From NCBI RefSeq assembly GCF_016446285.1, contig NZ_CP054140.1:2585501-2649500 (forward strand): a stretch of 64,000 nt of DNA, read 5' to 3'. Origin of the DNA: Desulfobulbus oligotrophicus. Its GTDB lineage: Bacteria > Desulfobacterota > Desulfobulbia > Desulfobulbales > Desulfobulbaceae. This document shows, in pieces, positions 23,019 through 32,701 of this stretch; positions within the stretch are counted from its first letter, which is position 1, and each line of letters opens with the position of its first letter. The translations under genes and the position numbers were made by a program. The notes below the pieces were generated by a model, which made no database searches, was not told where the DNA came from, and saw only the letters and a program-made list of their open reading frames with translations.

Positions 23019-23408
23019 TCAATATACACCTAAAAGGTTAAGTGCCAATAAAAGCAGTCCAATGCAGGCAATTCGCTTCACCACCAGTGGACTGACCCGC
23101 TTGGCAATCTGTGGAGCTAAATAACCGCCCAGAATCGCTGCGGGAAACATGGCCAGAAAAAAGTAGAGGTCAAAGTTACCAAACTGGTAATGACGCATGG
23201 TGCTGATTGAGGTGTTGAAAAAGATGGCAAGCAATGAGCTGCCGACAACCAGATACATAGGTAGACGCAAGGCAACGGTCATCAGCGGCACCATGAAAGG
23301 ACCGCCGCCAAAGCCGAACATCGAGGACATGATGGCAATTAAAAAACCGCCGATACAACCAACCACCATGTTTACTTTAAATTCTTGTCCCCAAAATTCT
23401 ATTTTCAT
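23019..23408 (-). CDS. Half-size TSUP (TauE/SafE) membrane protein
   Basis: 129 residues from the ATG at 23408, with GGAGG 8 bases upstream. It has about four membrane segments and one TSUP signature, GCIGGFLIAIMSSMFGFGGGPFMVP, plus VVGSSLLAIFFNTS. A complete TSUP carrier has two such halves in one chain of about 250-300 residues. Here the other half is encoded just upstream (23435-24673), so the two proteins probably form one carrier. The family exports or imports sulfite, sulfoacetate, taurine and other organosulfur or organic anions; the substrate is unknown. Confidence 0.8.
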   Translation of the reverse strand: MKIEFWGQEFKVNMVVGCIGGFLIAIMSSMFGFGGGPFMVPLMTVALRLPMYLVVGSSLLAIFFNTSISTMRHYQFGNFDLYFFLAMFPAAILGGYLAPQIAKRVSPLVVKRIACIGLLLLALNLLGVY

Positions 23409-23434
23409 ACTCACTTCCTCCTCGAGCGGATTGC

Positions 23435-24673
23435 TTATTTTTTACCTTGAGCAGCTTCTTCAGCACGTTTCTTGAATTCTTTAAGGATAGCCTGTTCTTT
23501 CTTGTTCTTTGCCAGATAACCAGGCGTGGTCTGCCAGAACATCAGTACCGCGAGAACAATAAGGATCCATCCAAAAGCAAACTTAAACTGATCCAAAGTA
23601 ATCATTTCAGTTAACTTCGGACCTATAAATCCACCGAGAAGCATAGCCGCTCCAATGCTGCAGCCAAGTTTCCAGTTAATAAATTTTATTTTAGAATAGT
23701 TATAAATACCGCTGCCCTGTGAGAAAAGAACAGTAGGCGTAACGGTACCGGCAACAATTGTGTGCGGCAGGGCCGGAAAAAGTGTCAGCAGGAGAGGGTT
23801 CATGATAAAACCACCACCAGCACCCATAAGAACGCCAAAGATGGCGACTACCAGGGTCAAGAAAAACGGATAAAAAATGTTGAGGCTGGTTCCGGCGTTA
23901 CCCAGGTAAACATTGGGAAAATCAATTTTATTCTCAAAGGTAACAGCTTCGCTCTTGGCATTTTTATCAGCCACTGCGACAATCTTGTACTGGCCTGGGG
24001 CCAATCCTTTACGAACGTTGATATCAGCTGTGTAAGAACCGTCCGGCTTAAGATCAATCACAGCGGCAAAAACGTTGTCAATCTTGCGAAAACGAGCCTT
24101 GACCAGCTGCATGGATCGTTTGTTATTTTCTTTAGCATCAAGGGCGGGGAGCAGATCACCGCGGCTACCGATGATACTGGCCATCAAGGTTGACTGGTAG
24201 CTGTCGATCTTGGCCTTTGCCGGTACAGAGTATGCCCCTTCAGCACCGAGGCTCTTGAGCAGTTCCGAATAACTCCATTTATTCTTTTTCTTGGCTTCTT
24301 CATCGATCTTTGCCTGCAAATCCTTGGATACAAAAATTTTATAATACGCAGGCATCTCGCTGGTTATATAAAATTTATAAGGTCGCACACCGGTCTCTTT
24401 GTCCGGATCTGCATCAAAACGGTTGGCCCGCACCATATGATCGGCAGCATAGACCTCCAGATAAACCGGCTTGCCGGCAGGTACCTGACCACTGACCTTA
24501 ATGGTTCCGCCATTATTAATCTGTGCTTTGTCAATGGTTATGGTCGGTGCATCCAGCACCGCCGATTGTCCGGATGCCTGAGAGGTGTCTTCGACGCCGC
24601 AGGCGACGTTAACACCGGCAAACATTACCATTGCCGCAACAAGCCATGGCATTATTCCTGTTTTTTTCTTCAT
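23435..24673 (-). CDS. TSUP half-carrier with large periplasmic N-terminal domain
   Basis: 412 residues from the ATG at 24673, chosen for AAAGGAG 8 bases upstream. A signal sequence (residues 1-28) is followed by about 235 extracytoplasmic residues with a beta-sandwich look (TITIDKAQINNGGTIKVSG, GQYKIVAVADKNAKSE). A four-helix TSUP half follows, with the signature GVLMGAGGGFIMNPLLLTLFP, and the C-terminal tail is Lys/Glu-rich. It is paired with the half-size TSUP gene 26 bases downstream. The extracytoplasmic domain could bind or present the substrate; I do not recognise it as a named domain. Confidence 0.8.
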   Translation of the reverse strand: MKKKTGIMPWLVAAMVMFAGVNVACGVEDTSQASGQSAVLDAPTITIDKAQINNGGTIKVSGQVPAGKPVYLEVYAADHMVRANRFDADPDKETGVRPYKFYITSEMPAYYKIFVSKDLQAKIDEEAKKKNKWSYSELLKSLGAEGAYSVPAKAKIDSYQSTLMASIIGSRGDLLPALDAKENNKRSMQLVKARFRKIDNVFAAVIDLKPDGSYTADINVRKGLAPGQYKIVAVADKNAKSEAVTFENKIDFPNVYLGNAGTSLNIFYPFFLTLVVAIFGVLMGAGGGFIMNPLLLTLFPALPHTIVAGTVTPTVLFSQGSGIYNYSKIKFINWKLGCSIGAAMLLGGFIGPKLTEMITLDQFKFAFGWILIVLAVLMFWQTTPGYLAKNKKEQAILKEFKKRAEEAAQGKK

Positions 24674-24843
24674 ACTCGCGTCTCCTTTGAGTCTGTTTGC
24701 TGAGGTCAGCTTGTAACCTCCACCACAAACGGTAAACATAATCCCATACCACTCGGATCATTAAACCCGATAAAAACCTATAATTCACATGCATTTACTG
24801 CAACAAAAAATCTTCTCATCCCTGTGTATCCCTGCAGCCCTCC

Positions 24844-26577
24844 TTAACGCCGGTCTTCAGCGTCTTTTGAATTTTGTGTCAACGATAGTATTTTACGTTC
24901 ACCGGCGTAATCCTGATCGGTAAAACCGGTCATTGATACCATCTTACTGGTTAACTCCCCAATCTGTTTTAAGTTACGAACGATAACTTCCAGCTCTTCG
25001 CGCTCTTCAGGCAGCTGAAGCTCTTCGGCCAGAAGTTCCGCAGTTCCTAAAGCGGCAAACAGGGGGCTGTTGACCTCATGGGCCACAGTGCCTGCCAATG
25101 CTAAAATTGCCTGCAACTTACCACTTTGTAAACGTTCTTCCGCCAACAGGTACTCACTGGTAACATCTCGAATAATTTCAATTACATACAAAATATTGCC
25201 ACTGTCATCATGAATGGGAAATGCTGTCCGCTCCAGCCATCGTTGTGCTTGATCCTCACCAGATGTTTGCAGAAAGGGGCGCATCTCTCTTCCCTGAAGC
25301 ACCTGTTCCACCGGACTGTCTTCAGAAGTGATATCGCACAACTCGGTATAGGACCTGTCAAGTACCTCATCTTCCGGCTTGCCAACGGTTTCAAGATAGA
25401 CCTGATTAGCAAGCACTATCCGCCGACTTTGATCAATAACCAACAACTGATGCTGTAAGCTGTCAATAATGTTTGCAAGAAACTCCTCATGCGCCTGCAC
25501 CTGTCGCATCAACCGGGTAATTTTTTGGTAGCTGCGCGCTTTACGTATGGCCGACCCTCCAACCTCTGCCAAAGTAACGGCAAACCTGACCGCAGAATCT
25601 GTAAAAACACGTGGCCTGTCACTGAGAATACGCAGGGCACCGATGACCTCACCATTGACTTTTACGGGCACTGCCAGCAGTGAACAGATGCCTTCTGTGG
25701 TCATTTGCTGATGGTATTGTATACGTGGATCACGTCTCACATCATAAATTGCCACAGGCTCCCCGTTGAGCACCACCTGAATGTTCCGCTCATGACTGAC
25801 CTCACCCCGGTGCAGATAGGCTGCCGATAGTCCATAGGAAGCGGCCAACTCCAGAAGGCCCGATTCAGGGTTGATCAAGCGCAAGGTGCAGCCTTTAGCA
25901 CCCATACTCACTGCAGCCCGCTCCACCACAACGTTAAAGATATGATCAATGTCAAGAGTGAAATTTACCAGGGTGGAGATCTCCTGAATACCATTCAAAA
26001 AGACCAGCCGCGCCTCCATCTCCTTAAACATTCGGCCATGGGAGATGGCCACTCCGATCTGTTCGGACAAACCGACAGCTAAAGCTATCTCGGCATCTGT
26101 GAACTGATGAGTTCTGCGCGTGAGTAACCGCATAATGCCAATGAGCTCTTCCTTATACAAGACAGGTACAGTCAAAATACTCTTGATACCTTCCTGAGCA
26201 GCTGCTTGACGAAACTGCGGACACGACTCCTGTGCTGCATCTTCATTGTACACAGGTGTTCCGGATCGAACCGTTGTTAGGGTCTCCTCAGTATCGATAA
26301 CTTCGCGAGAAAGATATTCCAGTGAAACACCGTGGGCAGCGCCAAGGACAAAAGTTCGGGTGGAGTGATCAAGCAATCTGATGGTACAGGCATCAACGAT
26401 CAGCAACTCCGTCAGACTCCGCACAATTGTATCCATCACCTCTTGGTGATCAAGGGTCGTTGAGATGAGACGGCTCACCTTTTGGTACACCTCCAGAAAC
26501 TGCCGGTCACGGCCTGGAACGGCTCCTCCTGATGCTCCCTGCGATGCTCCAGTCTGCATTGGCGATTCTGCGACCAC
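24844..26577 (-). CDS. GAF-GAF-PAS sensor with HisKA domain but no ATPase domain
   Basis: 577 residues from a GTG at 26577 with GGAG 5 bases upstream. Two GAF domains lie at about 30-185 and 200-345, a PAS domain at about 365-480, and a histidine phosphoacceptor helix with His500 in LAGTVAHEVNSPLFAALG. Only 77 residues follow, ending in a short acidic tail, so the HATPase_c domain (N, G1, G2 boxes) is absent. It is soluble, with no membrane segments. It cannot phosphorylate itself, so another kinase must act on it or it signals by binding. It is 2 bases downstream of the receiver gene; the stop at 24844 is clean, without a visible remnant. Confidence 0.88.
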   Translation of the reverse strand: MVAESPMQTGASQGASGGAVPGRDRQFLEVYQKVSRLISTTLDHQEVMDTIVRSLTELLIVDACTIRLLDHSTRTFVLGAAHGVSLEYLSREVIDTEETLTTVRSGTPVYNEDAAQESCPQFRQAAAQEGIKSILTVPVLYKEELIGIMRLLTRRTHQFTDAEIALAVGLSEQIGVAISHGRMFKEMEARLVFLNGIQEISTLVNFTLDIDHIFNVVVERAAVSMGAKGCTLRLINPESGLLELAASYGLSAAYLHRGEVSHERNIQVVLNGEPVAIYDVRRDPRIQYHQQMTTEGICSLLAVPVKVNGEVIGALRILSDRPRVFTDSAVRFAVTLAEVGGSAIRKARSYQKITRLMRQVQAHEEFLANIIDSLQHQLLVIDQSRRIVLANQVYLETVGKPEDEVLDRSYTELCDITSEDSPVEQVLQGREMRPFLQTSGEDQAQRWLERTAFPIHDDSGNILYVIEIIRDVTSEYLLAEERLQSGKLQAILALAGTVAHEVNSPLFAALGTAELLAEELQLPEEREELEVIVRNLKQIGELTSKMVSMTGFTDQDYAGERKILSLTQNSKDAEDRR

Positions 26578-26579
26578 GC

Positions 26580-26960
26580 TTACTCCGATCCCTGATCAGC
26601 GTGCGCTGCCAGGACCTTTTCTACTTTTTCCTCCAACTCTGTCCGATCAATTGGTTTTACACAGTATTCATCAGCCCCCAAACTAATAGCCTCACGCGCC
26701 GTCTCCACAGTCGGGTAACCGGTGAGCATAATGGCACCGATATTGGGCTTTGCCTCTTTCATGATCGCCAGAACTTCAATGCCGCTCATCTTTTTGAGTT
26801 TTATATCCAGGATAACGAGGTCAACAAAAGATTGCCGTACAAAGGCGATAGCCTCATCTTCATCCGTAAATGTATGGACGACATGTCCTTTCTTCCTCAG
26901 AATTTTACCTATTAATACGGTCGCATCAAGAACATCATCTAAAGTAAGTATTTCAGCCAT
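26580..26960 (-). CDS. Single-domain response regulator (receiver only)
   Basis: 126 residues from the ATG at 26960; a GTG two codons upstream is possible. The receiver has acidic Asp8/Asp9, phosphoacceptor Asp52 in VDLVILDIKL, Thr in IMLTGYP and Lys in EYCVKPID. There is no output domain, so it acts as a phosphate relay or by protein binding. It is separated from the sensor gene by two bases and is preceded by a candidate sigma-54 promoter. Confidence 0.9.
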   Translation of the reverse strand: MAEILTLDDVLDATVLIGKILRKKGHVVHTFTDEDEAIAFVRQSFVDLVILDIKLKKMSGIEVLAIMKEAKPNIGAIMLTGYPTVETAREAISLGADEYCVKPIDRTELEEKVEKVLAAHADQGSE

Positions 26961-26982
26961 TTCCACGCCATTGTAAAATTAC

Positions 26983-27014
26983 AAACATGTGCATACGTCC
27001 GCATGCACATGTTT
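26983..27014. repeat. Perfect 12-bp hairpin in the receiver-gene leader
   Basis: AAACATGTGCAT and ATGCACATGTTT are perfect inverted arms with an 8-base loop. It lies between the sigma-54 element and the receiver start. On the plus strand it ends in several T; on the minus strand it would be a leader stem-loop or attenuator. Confidence 0.6.
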
Positions 27015-27066
27015 TTGTTAAAAAACGAACCGATCATCGTAGTCCTTATCTTAACAGGTCAACATT

Positions 27067-27082
27067 TGCATGTTCAATGCCA
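27067..27082 (-). promoter_or_regulatory. Candidate sigma-54 promoter of the receiver-sensor pair
   Basis: On the minus strand the sequence reads TGGCATTGAACATGCA. GG and GC are separated by exactly 10 bases, and it matches the TGGCAC-N5-TTGCA consensus at all but two specified positions. Transcription would start near 27055, about 95 bases before the receiver ATG. An NtrC-type activator gene lies immediately upstream. Confidence 0.6.
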
Positions 27083-27187
27083 GGTTCGCACCATCACTAT
27101 ATTCATAAAATTCTTTTAATATCATTTAGTTAAAAATGACATATCCAGCAGAACAACACGTTAATTAATGGATGGGCACACTCTAAA

Positions 27188-27222
27188 GCAACAAAAATGT
27201 TGCAGAGCAACAAAATAATTGC
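27188..27222. promoter_or_regulatory. Two tandem 16-bp dyads, possible activator-binding sites
   Basis: GCAACAAAAATGTTGC (27188-27203) and GCAACAAAATAATTGC (27207-27222) are similar dyads with centres 19 bases apart. They lie about 140-160 bases upstream of the predicted sigma-54 start, the usual place for enhancer sites of NtrC-type activators. The first could also form a weak terminator for the gene ending at 27276. Confidence 0.5.
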
Positions 27223-27275
27223 ATGGGCAAAGAGCTGCGATAGGAGAAAAACAGAACCCTTTGTCGAGAAATCGT

Positions 27276-27674
27276 CTAACGTTTCTCAAGCAGAACTGTG
27301 AAAAGACCCTGCTCAATACGTGGTTGAATACTGCTGAGCAGCTCAGAACTTTCCAGATACGGACAGGGTTTAGCATAAGGAAATTCCCGACACTGCCGGG
27401 GTCGAGCCTCATGAATTGTGCAGCGTTTACTCAACCGATCGTCGGCAAGCAGAAGACATGATCCGTCTTCCTTGATTTTGAAGGTATTCCTGTTCTCAAG
27501 ATAACGTGTCCGCACCTCACCATCACTGATGTTGAAATAACGTGCAATCCGATTGATATCTGCGGCATCAAGGTACAGGGTGGCTCCGGGTAAGCGATAA
27601 CAGCAATACCCTGGACAAAAATTACAAAACGATTTGTTGCGAGCCAATACATACTCGCCTCTCTGACCTGACAT
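27276..27674 (-). CDS. YkgJ-family cysteine-cluster protein
   Basis: 132 residues. The cysteines follow the YkgJ (zinc- or iron-chelating) pattern: CNFCPGYCCYRL near the N-terminus, then CLLL, CTIHEARPRQCREFPYAKPCPY. Function of the family is unknown; metal binding is inferred. Its ATG overlaps the stop of the NtrC-type gene (TGATG), so the two are translated together. A second cysteine-cluster domain of the same kind is fused to the phosphatase upstream. Confidence 0.85.
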   Translation of the reverse strand: MSGQRGEYVLARNKSFCNFCPGYCCYRLPGATLYLDAADINRIARYFNISDGEVRTRYLENRNTFKIKEDGSCLLLADDRLSKRCTIHEARPRQCREFPYAKPCPYLESSELLSSIQPRIEQGLFTVLLEKR

Positions 27675-29101
27675 CAGCGAAAACTCCTTGATTCAATCCT
27701 GTATCGTCGCAAGAGACGCTGCAGGGCCTGTCGTTCCATGCCGCAAATCCGGGCAGCGGCCGTAACATTTCCTGCTGTTGTTTTTAAGGCTGCAGTTAAA
27801 TAAGCGTCATTGAACTGTTGCAGCACCTGATTTTTAGCATCCTGGTACGATAGGTGAGTAACTGAGGTGGTGTCGATTGAGTCATGCACGACTGATCTTT
27901 TTCCCGCTGTTCCCTCTTCTGACGCATCGTTCCACAGATCGCGCCGTTCAATTATTGTCTGCTCATTGAGTAGAGCGCATCTGTTAATAATATTCTGCAA
28001 CTCCCGAATGTTCCCTTGCCATTGGTGCTGCATCAAGGCCTGCAGGGCATCGGCTGTAAATTCCATGGATGGGCGGCCATGCTCAAGACAGTACCGTTCA
28101 AGAAAATGCTGGGCCAACAGCGGAATGTCTGTTGCCATGGCTGCCAGGTTCGGCATGGTTATGGTCATGACATTTAAACGGTAAAAGAGATCCTCACGAA
28201 ACTCTCCCCGTTGAATCTTTGCTTCGAGATCCTGATTAGTTGATGCAATCACGCGGACATCTACTTTGAACGTACGATTCTGTCCCAGCGGCTGCACCTC
28301 TTTCTCCTGGAGCACCCGAAGCAACTTGGTCTGCACACTCACCGGAATATCGGCAATTTCGTCCAGAAAGATGGATGATCCGTCGGCCGCTGCAAAAAGC
28401 CCGGTTTTATCACGATCAGCCCCTGTGAACGCGCCCCGCCGATAACCAAACAACTCGCTTTCTAAAATATGCTCCGGTAATGCCGGACAGTTCACAGTGA
28501 CCATGGGCCGCTGATTCCGGGGTGAAAGATTATGCAGTGCTCTTGCCGCAAGCTCCTTACCGGTTCCGGATTCTCCACGGATTAATACTGTTACCGAACT
28601 GGGTGCAACCCGTCGTATCAATGCCACGGTTTCAACAAGTTTCCGGGATCGGCCAACAAAACCAAGCCTGTGGTCATGCCCGGAAAGCTGATGGTGCAGT
28701 TGAATATTTTCGCGGAGCAATCGTGTGCGTTCAACAGCGCGACGGATGGTCTGCAAAATATGTTCGTTATCAAAGGGTTTTTCAACAAAGTCATAGGCAC
28801 CGTCCTTCAATGCCCTGACCGCCATTTCAATGGTGCCATGCCCGGTCATTAAAATGATCGTCATGGTTGGATCAGAAGCACACAACCGCTGGAGTAATGC
28901 CAGACCATCCATGCCCGGCATTTTGATATCGGTCAGAACAACATCCGGAGATTCGGCCTGAACGTTTGTTAAAGCCTCCTCGCCGGATGCAGCACTCATA
29001 ACCACATACCCGCATTTTTTGACCAGCATCTTACTGAGAAAAACGAGCATGTCTTGTTCGTCGTCAACAACTAGAATTTTCGGACAGACACCCGTACTCA
29101 T
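27674..29101 (-). CDS. Sigma-54-dependent two-component response regulator (NtrC/DctD type)
   Basis: 475 residues. Receiver domain (10-125) with Asp58 in DVVLTDIKMPGMDGL; AAA+ domain with Walker A GESGTGKELAARAL, the sigma-54 contact loop RRGAFTGADRDKTG, Walker B IFLDEIADIP and an arginine-finger region; C-terminal Fis-type helix-turn-helix (TTAGNVTAAARICGMERQALQRLLRR). All parts look functional. It begins 6 bases after the phosphatase gene and overlaps the YkgJ gene. A plausible target is the adjacent sigma-54 promoter near 27.07 kb. No complete sensor kinase is encoded nearby. Confidence 0.95.
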   Translation of the reverse strand: MSTGVCPKILVVDDEQDMLVFLSKMLVKKCGYVVMSAASGEEALTNVQAESPDVVLTDIKMPGMDGLALLQRLCASDPTMTIILMTGHGTIEMAVRALKDGAYDFVEKPFDNEHILQTIRRAVERTRLLRENIQLHHQLSGHDHRLGFVGRSRKLVETVALIRRVAPSSVTVLIRGESGTGKELAARALHNLSPRNQRPMVTVNCPALPEHILESELFGYRRGAFTGADRDKTGLFAAADGSSIFLDEIADIPVSVQTKLLRVLQEKEVQPLGQNRTFKVDVRVIASTNQDLEAKIQRGEFREDLFYRLNVMTITMPNLAAMATDIPLLAQHFLERYCLEHGRPSMEFTADALQALMQHQWQGNIRELQNIINRCALLNEQTIIERRDLWNDASEEGTAGKRSVVHDSIDTTSVTHLSYQDAKNQVLQQFNDAYLTAALKTTAGNVTAAARICGMERQALQRLLRRYRIESRSFR

Positions 29102-29107
29102 AATTCT

Positions 29108-30145
29108 TTATTCGCTGTTTTTTCCAGTCATTGCCTGAAAATAAAGTTGAACAAACCTGCCTGAAATAGTGTCGGCTGAACTGAAACGCAAATCTGCCGC
29201 CGACATTTTGCTCCCGGTGAGTATCTGAAAGGCCTGCATCGAGAGTTCAACAACCTGGTCCTCGACATCACGCATACTGCTCTGTTCATCCTTCGTCCAG
29301 CAGAGACATCGCCTTGGTCGTTCTGTAAAGATCAGGCACCGGCCATCTTCCAACAGGGGACAGACAAGATTTTCTTCTGGGAAATGTGCAGCCAACGTCT
29401 CAGTGGACAATCCGGGAACCTGCCGATGCAGCTCCTTCATATGCCGGGCAAGGACAAGCGCCCGATCGATCACCGCCTGTCGCTGCGCATGTGGAAGAGT
29501 TCTGTTGACCACCTCACTGAGGTGCATACTTTCAATCAGATGCAATTCAAAAGGGCTATGACAACAGGGATGATTGTTTTGGCCACAGACTTCTTCGTCC
29601 CGGGAGGTTTCATCCTCTACACGAGCGAGCAGTTGTGCGTATATTGCCAGTAAAGGGGCAACATCCGTACTTGGGCGGTTATCGATTTTAGGGGCCGCGG
29701 TTTGCAGTGATCCTGTCTGTTTCCCATACCGTTTTAAAAATTTACGCTGCTCATAGGTTGCAGGGTTGGCGTTTCGCCCTTTCATTGCTTTTTGTGCCAG
29801 TTTAAAATCAAAACCACGCCGCAACAGATACGCCGCAATAAATGTACCGGTACGCCCATGACCGAGTCGACAGTGTACAAGTACTTTTTTATTTAAATAG
29901 ATACTCTCATCCAGCCAGTCGAGCGCCTTTTCCATGGCTTCAAGATCAGGTGCACATTCATCAACGACCGGCAAATAGTACACTTCAAAACCACTGCCCT
30001 CTTCTATCTCATGCAGATCGCAGAATTCTCCACATAAGTTAACAATGGCGCGAATTCCCTGCTCTCTGATGGAGTCCAGGTCCTCGTAGGACATCGGTGC
30101 ATGACCCGTGGCCAGATGATCTGTAATCCAGTGCATTTGGTACAT
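29108..30145 (-). CDS. Dual-specificity phosphatase fused to a YkgJ-like cysteine cluster
   Basis: 345 residues. The N-terminal 150 are a cysteine phosphatase: general acid candidate Asp62 in PVVDECAPD and the P-loop HCRLGHGRTG with Cys92 and Arg98. After a linker, the C-terminal half has a cysteine-rich pattern, VCGQNNHPCCHSPFEL and CPLLEDGRCLIFTERPRRCLCW, resembling the YkgJ metal-binding family. The combination suggests phosphatase activity governed by a metal or redox signal, but this is inference. It lies between the PEP-synthase-like gene (15 bases upstream) and the NtrC-type gene, so it is a natural candidate to reverse phosphorylation made by that enzyme. Confidence 0.85.
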   Translation of the reverse strand: MYQMHWITDHLATGHAPMSYEDLDSIREQGIRAIVNLCGEFCDLHEIEEGSGFEVYYLPVVDECAPDLEAMEKALDWLDESIYLNKKVLVHCRLGHGRTGTFIAAYLLRRGFDFKLAQKAMKGRNANPATYEQRKFLKRYGKQTGSLQTAAPKIDNRPSTDVAPLLAIYAQLLARVEDETSRDEEVCGQNNHPCCHSPFELHLIESMHLSEVVNRTLPHAQRQAVIDRALVLARHMKELHRQVPGLSTETLAAHFPEENLVCPLLEDGRCLIFTERPRRCLCWTKDEQSSMRDVEDQVVELSMQAFQILTGSKMSAADLRFSSADTISGRFVQLYFQAMTGKNSE

Positions 30146-30160
30146 GGCAAACGATCCGGT

Positions 30161-32701
30161 CTAATGTTTTTCGTGATCGGCAGTGTCGCCGATCTCAGCA
30201 AAAAAATCCTGAACAAAGGGGGCAATATCTTCAATCTGCATACTCATGTCGAGTAACTTGGTCTTTCCGAGCAGGTATCCCACCTGGGTCAGTACACTCA
30301 TAAGTCTGGGCGCGGCCAGAGCCTGTATTCGGGCATCAAGAAGATCGCCACGGACACGAACTTCGAAATCCAACTGTTCGAGAATCCGTTGCAGCAAAAC
30401 AATTCGAATCACCTTTCCCTGATAGTCACCACCGCCGCCGGCAAACCGCAGCTGACAGTAATTGGCCCTGCTCACCGAGCCGCACAGACAGTCAAGCAGG
30501 GCAAAGTGAAAGCCGAAACGCATATTTAGATTTAAATAATCCGGGCTGACGATGGCATAGGAAGCATACTCTTTGGTTACGCCGACGCTGATACCTCCGG
30601 AAAGAGCTGCATCGCTGAATCCTTTCCAATCAAAATGCAAGTGATTGTCCCAATCAACCCTGGGATGACTGAGCCCCTTCCAGAGCGCCAGAAACGGCTC
30701 AGAATGCAGTTCCCGGGGGGTGATCTCTTCACTGCCCTCCTGATGAAAGGCTCCACCAACATCAAGCAGATAAATATCAAGCGGGATATCGGTCGTCAGT
30801 TTTCGACAACGGGACGACGCACTGCCGGCCATGCTCCCAAGACCGAACATGATCTGGACGGCCTTTTCATGACTGAAACGGATAATATCGTGCAAAGAGC
30901 GGCACGATTGTGCCCGAAACTCAGGCGATGCAGGATCCAGAAGGTGGAGCGGGGTGATGTGATCAAGCATTGACCGCAGCTTGCGTCGATAAGCTGAATC
31001 AGGGAGATCTTTCTTCTCCTCCAGGCCGGTGAGAAGCTGGTCAACCCTGCCCGGATACACACAGCCCCTGAAGCCGTCCACCGTCACCTCCGTGCCCTCG
31101 TTTAACACGGTCAGTGCTCCCTGAGCCTCAACCAGCAGTGCCACCTGAAACTCTCGACAGACTGTGGCAAAATGACCGGTTACAGAACCCTGCTCACAGA
31201 CAACAGCAGCAAGTTTAGGAATATATCGAGCCAGACTGGGCGGAATATGTCGTGTGACAAGTATGGTTTGTTCTGCTGTATCAATCCCGCCTCCAGGTTG
31301 AAGGTGTTGAACAATGCCGTGGGCAACTCCCTTTGATGCGATACGGGCATGCACAAGCAGTGGCGAAATATCTGGAATTTCAACCGTCTGAGATTCTTCA
31401 ATCTCCCTATTATCTTCCACTGCCAACGGACGGGCTTGCAAAATATACAGATTATCCTCACCATCGATCGCCCATTCAATATCTTGCGGCACACCGAAAA
31501 ACTGTTCAATCTCGCGAGAAATCCGCGCTATGTGCACAGCCTGATCTCTATGTAACGATGAAGAATGACTTGATGTGCAGCGAGCGGGTGCTCCTCTGCC
31601 TCCCTTGTTTTTCTCATCTGTTCCAGAGTGTTTATACGTAGCAGCAGTCTCTTCAACCGGCGTTAAACTGCCCGCAGCAAAGCAAAACGTATCAGGCACC
31701 GCCTCTCCGCCGACAAGGGCCAACCCAAGGCCTGGTACAGCATGCACCAACAGCTCTCCACTTCCAGCTGCAACCGGATTACGGGTGTATACCACCCCAC
31801 TGGTTACTCCATCAATCATCCTCTGTACCATAACTGCCATGGCTGCATCTTCGTCACTGATACCGGCATGTATTCTATACAAAAGGGCCTGTGGAGAGTA
31901 CTTAGAAGCACACACCTCAAGGTACGCTGCCAAGAGCCCTGCCCGGTCAACCCCTAATACAGAGTGATACTGACCGGCAAAACTATGTTCTCCATCTTCA
32001 TGCAAGGCTGAAGAACGCACGGCAACCGTGAAAAAAGAGCTCCATTCGTTATTGGCCAACGCATCGTACTCTGCCAGAATAGCTTCAGTGATATGACTCG
32101 GGATCTCCATGTTTTGCACCAAGGTCATCAGTGCCTGGGAGATCTGGTCCAAACTTGCCGGAGTATTCAGGTCAAGACCGGCCAGTAGAAGGTCTATTGC
32201 CGGCCGCAACTGATTATGTGCGACCAGGAGATCGTAGGTGGTGGCACTGATTGTAAAACCTTCAGGGACACGAATTTCCAGACCATGCTGAAGGGCTGTC
32301 AGGTTATAACTTTTGTTCCCGGCCAGTCCAGGGTCAACAGGGGTGTCATGATCAAGAACAAACGGTGGAATTAAAAATTGTTCCGGAGGAGCCAGAAGTA
32401 ACGTTATATAGAAATCATATTTGGAATAGTACTCCCGTAAAGGGCCTGCCATCCCGGGTTGCATCTGCTCCAGGGACGTGATCATACCCGAAACTGCAGC
32501 GGCAAATCGGCGATACTGACTACGGATCCGAGCAAAATCCTCCGGCTTGTGCTCATAGTAGAGAGCCTCCAGGTCCGCCATCAGCTCATGGCTCCTGCCA
32601 TTAAAATCAAGAAGCTCCTTAAATGCTTCATATGTCTGTTGAACAACCCGGTCAGGTGCCAACAGCCGCATCGACCAATGCTTTAGAGCTGCTCTAACCA
32701 C
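30161..32701 (-). CDS. PEP-synthase/PPDK-like phosphotransferase without a PEP barrel
   Basis: 846 residues from a GTG at 32701. Layout: helical N-terminal part (1-105); PPDK-type ATP-grasp domain (about 115-430) with VPEGFTIS, VRSSALHEDGEHSFAGQY (228-245), SGVVYTRNP and DIEWAIDGEDNLYILQARP (407-425); phosphohistidine swivel domain with GSVTGHFATVCREF, catalytic His510; then about 290 residues that do not resemble the PEP/pyruvate barrel. It should transfer phosphate from ATP to His510 and on to an unknown acceptor, as in rifampin phosphotransferase or glucan-dikinase relatives. A Lys/Gly/Ser-rich insert at 355-390 looks disordered. It is co-transcribed with the phosphatase and NtrC-type genes. 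Confidence 0.8.
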   Translation of the reverse strand: MVRAALKHWSMRLLAPDRVVQQTYEAFKELLDFNGRSHELMADLEALYYEHKPEDFARIRSQYRRFAAAVSGMITSLEQMQPGMAGPLREYYSKYDFYITLLLAPPEQFLIPPFVLDHDTPVDPGLAGNKSYNLTALQHGLEIRVPEGFTISATTYDLLVAHNQLRPAIDLLLAGLDLNTPASLDQISQALMTLVQNMEIPSHITEAILAEYDALANNEWSSFFTVAVRSSALHEDGEHSFAGQYHSVLGVDRAGLLAAYLEVCASKYSPQALLYRIHAGISDEDAAMAVMVQRMIDGVTSGVVYTRNPVAAGSGELLVHAVPGLGLALVGGEAVPDTFCFAAGSLTPVEETAATYKHSGTDEKNKGGRGAPARCTSSHSSSLHRDQAVHIARISREIEQFFGVPQDIEWAIDGEDNLYILQARPLAVEDNREIEESQTVEIPDISPLLVHARIASKGVAHGIVQHLQPGGGIDTAEQTILVTRHIPPSLARYIPKLAAVVCEQGSVTGHFATVCREFQVALLVEAQGALTVLNEGTEVTVDGFRGCVYPGRVDQLLTGLEEKKDLPDSAYRRKLRSMLDHITPLHLLDPASPEFRAQSCRSLHDIIRFSHEKAVQIMFGLGSMAGSASSRCRKLTTDIPLDIYLLDVGGAFHQEGSEEITPRELHSEPFLALWKGLSHPRVDWDNHLHFDWKGFSDAALSGGISVGVTKEYASYAIVSPDYLNLNMRFGFHFALLDCLCGSVSRANYCQLRFAGGGGDYQGKVIRIVLLQRILEQLDFEVRVRGDLLDARIQALAAPRLMSVLTQVGYLLGKTKLLDMSMQIEDIAPFVQDFFAEIGDTADHEKH

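Follow-up and report, generated by a model that had tools for sequence, protein, structure and literature searches.

A Predicted Sigma-54 Promoter with Tandem Activator Dyads Ahead of a Receiver and TauE/SafE Transporter Gene Cluster in Desulfobulbus oligotrophicus and Its Relatives

Genes at the Locus

The stretch of 64,000 nucleotides analyzed here (the window) contains a series of minus-strand genes from the genome of Desulfobulbus oligotrophicus. In the direction of transcription, the order is a PEP-synthase-like gene, a DSP phosphatase gene, an NtrC-type activator gene, ykgJ, the promoter, a receiver (REC) gene, a GAF-GAF-PAS-HisKA gene, and a split TauE/SafE transporter gene. The genes are as follows.

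30161-32701, minus strand: PEP-synthase-like gene (Pfam PPDK_N and mobile domain); conserved neighbor by synteny
29108-30145, minus strand: DSP/PTP-like phosphatase (Pfam DSP-PTPase, 7e-18); conserved neighbor by synteny
27674-29101, minus strand: NtrC-type activator (Pfam Sigma54_activat 1e-68, Response_reg, and HTH_8; GAFTGA in the translation)
27276-27674, minus strand: CxxCxxCC protein (YkgJ), putative zinc/iron-chelating (Pfam CxxCxxCC, 7e-10); between the activator gene and the promoter, syntenic in relatives
26580-26966, minus strand: receiver (REC), a single-domain response regulator (Pfam Response_reg, 2e-23); first gene behind the promoter
24844-26577, minus strand: GAF-GAF-PAS-HisKA protein (Pfam domains)
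23435-24739, minus strand: first half of the TauE/SafE transporter, carrying an additional domain at the N-terminus (Pfam TauE positions 2-113 of 237)
23019-23414, minus strand: second half of the TauE/SafE transporter (Pfam TauE positions 126-237 of 237)

The likely start of the receiver is the ATG at 26960, and its relatives start at the equivalent ATGGCT. No HATPase_c domain was detected by Pfam in the protein encoded at 24844-26577, even at an E-value of 0.1. Having HisKA alone, this protein is thus not a complete kinase. Its orthologs have similar lengths in 22 relatives, and it may be a phosphotransfer, signal-input, or signal-integration protein. The TauE/SafE transporter is split into two adjacent genes (23019-24739), and the split is retained in relatives. 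A lone dyad-like site (24799-24816, 16 bits) is located just ahead of the TauE gene, in an intergenic gap so short that no sigma-54 promoter would fit between the site and the gene.

In the leader between the predicted transcription start and the receiver gene, a perfect 14-bp stem with a 4-base loop was observed at 26983-27014. The fold of the leader has a z-score of -4.6, with no shuffled sequence equally stable, and the tail after the stem has no clear T-run. This stem-loop was found neither in the nearest relative nor in the other leaders.

The Promoter Element and the Tandem Dyads

Three features were recognized in the intergenic region between ykgJ and the receiver gene.

27206-27223, minus strand: promoter-distal activator dyad (predicted), TGCAATTATTTTGTTGCT, 18 bp; 19 bp from the proximal dyad
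27187-27204, minus strand: promoter-proximal activator dyad (predicted), TGCAACATTTTTGTTGCT, 18 bp; center 127 bp upstream of the -12 GC
27064-27083, minus strand: sigma-54 -24/-12 promoter element (predicted), CTGGCATTGAACATGCAAAT, with GG at -24 and GC at -12

A first-pass annotation, made from the letters of the window, had proposed a GG-N10-GC element on the minus strand, and this element is present at 27067-27082 and is the best on its strand. The core TGGCATTGAACATGCA occurs only once in the window. The sequence CTGGCATTGAACATGCAAAT is the top minus-strand match in the window to the profile of the relatives (20.1 bits, the next being 12.0), and it has the GG-N10-GC at -24/-12 of TGGCAC-N5-TTGCA-like sigma-54 elements. 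The two similar 16-bp dyads of the same annotation are likewise there, an exact one (GCAACAAAAATGTTGC) at 27188-27203 and one with two mismatches (GCAACAAAATAATTGC) at 27207-27222, and their centers are 19 bp apart as it had described. With profiles made without the window, the proximal and distal dyads are the best (24.3 bits) and the second best (21.6 bits) sites of the window; the center of the distal dyad is 146 bp above the -12 GC. When the transcription start is predicted near 27056, about 12 bp after the -12 GC, the dyad centers are about 140 and 159 bp upstream of it, in agreement with the 140-160 bases estimated before. Two or more dyads on one helix face, about 80-200 bp upstream, characterize the tandem upstream activating sequence (UAS) of an NtrC-type activator, and the two dyads of the window have this arrangement.

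The whole arrangement was evaluated with a profile trained on the promoters of 24 relatives, from which the window and its nearest relative were left out. A pattern inspired by the window had yielded roughly half of these training promoters, and gene order had yielded the remainder. The window site scores 65.0 bits, while no other independent site in the window exceeds about 7, and the maximum over 200 simulated 64-kb strands is 33.4 bits. Promoters outside the training set, from six species (G012, G023, G006, G017, G009, and G018), score 47.6-65.9 at the syntenic place. Scores above 40 were observed only at such dyad promoters when the 1.3 Mb of retrieved DNA were scanned in full. From this arrangement, the minus-strand region 27064-27223 is almost certainly a sigma-54 promoter equipped with a tandem enhancer. 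By number, dyad-like matches are uninformative about the promoter site (53 in the window against 37 expected). No IHF consensus above chance was found between the dyads and the promoter in the window, and full IHF matches are present in the promoters of G020, G001, and G002.

The consensus of the proximal dyad in the profile of the relatives is TGCAtCTTTTTTGTTGCA, and that of the promoter is cTGGCATngattnTGCA. Across the family, the dyad has the consensus TGCATC-TTTTTT-GTTGCA, its TGTTGC half being strong. Conservation is weak in the promoter-distal half of each dyad, and therefore perfect two-fold symmetry is not the rule; an exact palindrome is unusual. Compared with this consensus, the palindrome GCAACA-N4-TGTTGC offered as a search pattern by the first-pass annotation is too strict; its exact form matches one place in the 3,102,012-bp genome. 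The scan for further targets that it recommended was performed in the own genome by patterns. A looser tandem pattern, and the tandem pattern combined with a downstream TGG, each match only the promoter locus, and no second copy of the tandem dyads was found by this search. A search for single dyads with three mismatches yields at least about 1,200 matches in the genome and is unusable for defining a regulon.

Conservation in Related Genomes

The gene cluster was found, whole or in part, at the loci of 22 relatives. The conserved order is NtrC-YkgJ-[promoter]-(MP-HK2)-REC-...-TauE-SafE, where MP is a membrane protein of about 155 aa and HK2 is a full kinase of 520 aa. In most relatives, the intergenic DNA contains tandem dyads and a -24/-12 element like those of the window. 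In the pairwise alignment with the nearest relative, the dyads and the -24/-12 element stand out as conserved blocks while the remaining intergenic DNA is divergent. The conservation in close relatives on which the first-pass annotation had staked its reading is thus observed. The nearest relative has CTGGCATTGAtCATGCA as its -24/-12 element, and most of the other relatives have TGGYAY...TGCW. Among 27 promoters, the dyad spacing is 18-22 bp (in 19 promoters, it is 19 or 20 bp), and the proximal center is 106-165 bp upstream of the -12 GC, with a median of 139. In the window, this distance is 127 bp; for the same promoter, the promoter table contains an automatically chosen, overlapping element of equal score at 116 bp.

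In G004 and G001, the gap between ykgJ and the membrane protein gene is too small for a promoter, and the promoter is found instead at separate REC-TauE-SafE units. The second REC-TauE unit of G004 (L119, 8277) has the dyads, but no sigma-54 element was recognized after them.

Genes Downstream of the Promoter

In most relatives, the genes for MP and HK2 are located between the promoter and the receiver gene. The promoter is directly before the receiver gene in the window genome, G016, G008, G013, and G002. G002 retains only the receiver and the transporter behind the promoter, and G006 only the transporter. In G009, the same promoter is followed by a different, unsplit TauE-family protein. These variants, together with those of G001 and G004, indicate that the TauE-family transporter is the most constant output. 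Some loci, such as that of G008, are without an orthologous TauE. As judged from gene order, the TauE/SafE-type (sulfite-exporter-type) transporter is the predicted constant target of the promoter across relatives, with some losses. The target had been described earlier as a receiver-sensor pair. The receiver is the first gene as described, but the supposed sensor is without an ATPase domain, and the constant target is the transporter.

A second copy of the promoter was found in G008, G021, and G018 before an operon of molybdopterin oxidoreductase, ferredoxin, and nuo genes. In these three relatives, the gap between ppk and the molybdopterin oxidoreductase-ferredoxin-nuoABCD genes contains tandem dyads and a sigma-54 element (L120:6448-6473, L122:2208-2234, and L125:1034-1060). 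No such site was found at the orthologous nuo/molybdopterin operon of the window genome. In other genera, a related molybdopterin oxidoreductase gene is inside the cluster, as in G024 between the receiver gene and the HisKA gene.

The Candidate Activator

The product of 27674-29101 has a receiver domain, an AAA+ domain with GAFTGA, and a Fis-type HTH, the composition of NtrC-type sigma-54 activators. The genome contains one rpoN, the gene with Sigma54_DBD (E-value 1.3e-62). The nearby NtrC-type activator claimed by the first-pass annotation is thus confirmed in its domains, and its ortholog accompanies the site. It scores 414 bits against the NtrC equivalog TIGR01818, whose cut-off is 558.6, and therefore it is not the nitrogen regulator NR(I). 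The activator gene precedes the promoter, is encoded on the same strand, and is outside the transcript that the promoter would start. Thus, the control is not strictly autogenous, contrary to the autogenous-style control once suggested.

Within the order, 153 of 258 genomes have an ortholog of the activator. When the 7-base center was required to contain three or more T, tandem sites were found in 35 genomes, and the ortholog is present in 30 of these (Fisher p 0.0007, a value that ignores relatedness, which confounds the association). The other five include G018, whose genome is fragmentary. The strict tandem pattern has no match in many of the ortholog-bearing genomes. Co-localization of activator genes with the sigma-54 promoters they regulate is frequent in Desulfovibrio vulgaris, and the regulons mostly comprise one to four operons (PMC4641369). 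In that study, co-localized activators were usually assumed to be the correct ones, and the assumption was correct in the tested case. The window genome encodes 22 full sigma-54 activators, and therefore the neighboring one is the best candidate and not the sole one. It is probable, from position and co-occurrence, that this NtrC-type regulator is the activator of the promoter.

Sensor Kinases

Neither MP nor the HK2 ortholog was found anywhere in the window genome, nor in G016, G008, G013, and G002. The gene content indicates the loss of both genes in the lineage of the window genome. In the genomes without HK2, the nearest HK2-like kinase is SUBK, a protein of about 690 aa, with 42-46% identity over the PAS-HisKA-ATPase part. 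The HisKA helix region is very similar between the two, and the sensor of SUBK is Cache/HAMP. In the window genome (G000), it is located as follows.

2689850-2691925 of G000: SUBK kinase, about 77 kb from the promoter

A gene for a phosphonate-binding-type lipoprotein (Pfam Phosphonate-bd, 2e-60) precedes and overlaps the SUBK gene, and no sigma-54 activator gene adjoins SUBK. The pair is retained in all five genomes checked. SUBK contains a Cys-rich insert, and the pair occupies L208:5848-8848 (G000:2689847-2692847).

Within the genus, SUBK is present in 12 genomes and HK2 in 10, and none has both (Fisher p 7e-5, ignoring relatedness). The absence of HK2 comes from an HK2 query in six of the 12 SUBK genomes and from the SUBK search in all 12, and three of the 12 are less than 75% complete. 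Two genomes of the genus have neither kinase, and the activator ortholog was not found in these either. Outside the genus, G049 from another family has both SUBK and HK2. On the activator tree, the kinase exchange needs three changes, two of which are forced by well-supported branches. The tree thereby places the switch between HK2 and SUBK within the genus at least twice.

The HK2-like core and the mutual exclusion in the genus make SUBK a plausible replacement input, and it is probably the kinase that now feeds the regulator in place of HK2. A broader reading is that the input of the Desulfobulbus circuit was swapped repeatedly, at least twice, from the local MP and HK2 to the unlinked SUBK with its HK2-like PAS-HisKA-ATPase core, Cache/HAMP sensor, and phosphonate-binding-type partner, while the activator, the tandem enhancer, and the TauE/SafE output were retained. 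The chances for and against this reading are judged to be about even.

Proposed Mechanism and Alternatives

The phosphorylated NtrC-type regulator (27674-29101) would bind the two TGCANC-N6-GTTGCA dyads. The bound regulator would loop to the RpoN polymerase at -24/-12 and open the promoter by ATP hydrolysis. The predicted transcript comprises the receiver gene, the GAF-PAS-HisKA gene, and the split TauE/SafE transporter. In most relatives, the promoter would drive MP and HK2 first, and both are missing in the lineage of the window. SUBK, paired with the phosphonate-binding-type protein, would signal to the regulator.

The sequences themselves show the conservation of the promoter and the dyads, the gene order, the absence of the sensor genes, and that SUBK and HK2 exclude each other within the genus. 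DNA binding, phosphorylation, activation, and the link to SUBK are the predicted parts of the mechanism. The whole explanation, with the sigma-54 promoter and tandem UAS, the neighboring activator, the receiver/HisKA/TauE-SafE transcript, the sensor loss, and the SUBK input, is given a probability of about 0.82.

It is rather unlikely that the sigma-54 promoter and the dyads are real and are bound by another of the 22 activators instead of the neighbor. The number of full Sigma54_activat genes in the genome and the presence of the element at loci distant from the NtrC gene are in line with this. However, the NtrC ortholog stays adjacent to the site in most relatives while the downstream genes vary, and the D. 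vulgaris precedent of co-localized activators usually taken as right, and right in the tested case, points to the neighbor (PMC4641369).

It is improbable that the site is a relic which worked with MP and HK2 and has been unused since the sensor loss. The absence of MP and the orthologous HK2 from the whole genome would fit a relic. However, the score of the window site is inside the range of the HK2-bearing relatives (45-76 bits), the dyads and the -24/-12 element were kept relative to the nearest relative while the other intergenic DNA diverged, and the receiver behind the promoter is 95% identical to its ortholog. Least likely is a chance resemblance, in which the receiver gene would be transcribed from a sigma-70 promoter (for instance, the weak match at 27062-27033), as the four sigma-70-like matches in the region are near chance (mean 2.2 and sd 1.5 in shuffles) and the sigma-54/dyad arrangement is far above chance and conserved.

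Control by the neighboring NtrC-type regulator is thus the preferred reading. With it, the binding motif, the regulator, and the target can be predicted for a sigma-54 circuit that is widespread in Desulfobulbus and its relatives and apparently new to the literature; no description of the circuit was found in open-access publications. The prediction therefore helps to address when these sulfur-cycling bacteria express a TauE/SafE-type transporter. The promoter itself is of a known kind and well explained, and the added interest is in the repeated change of the sensor with the enhancer and the output retained. If the kinase swap is true, it represents a repeated natural experiment in two-component rewiring with a constant output, and it makes testable predictions on phosphotransfer specificity.

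Comparison with Known Systems

Classical enhancers of the NtrC/glnA type are tandem dyads spaced by roughly two turns of the helix and situated 100-160 bp before a GG-N10-GC element. The tandem dyads and the GG-N10-GC of the window are the textbook arrangement for NtrC-type control. The sequence of the sites, the target genes, and the signal are different from the classical promoters, and the activator is below the NtrC equivalog cut-off.

The NtrC-family sigma-54 regulons of D. vulgaris (Kazakov et al. 2015, PMC4641369) are similar in the co-localization of activators with promoters, the half-site motifs upstream, and the small size of the regulons. D. vulgaris belongs to a different bacterial order, and the text of the paper includes neither a TGTTGC or TGCAAC motif nor a TauE target.

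The arsenite-sensing AioXSR system consists of a PhnD-related periplasmic binding protein, a histidine kinase, and a sigma-54 regulator of the AtoC family, and acts on an RpoN promoter with an upstream regulator site (PMC5908839). The three genes of AioXSR are together, whereas the kinase pair here is about 77 kb from the regulator to which it is putatively linked, and the output here is a TauE/SafE transporter. The proposed SUBK pair resembles AioX-AioS in having a PhnD-like binding protein adjoining its kinase.
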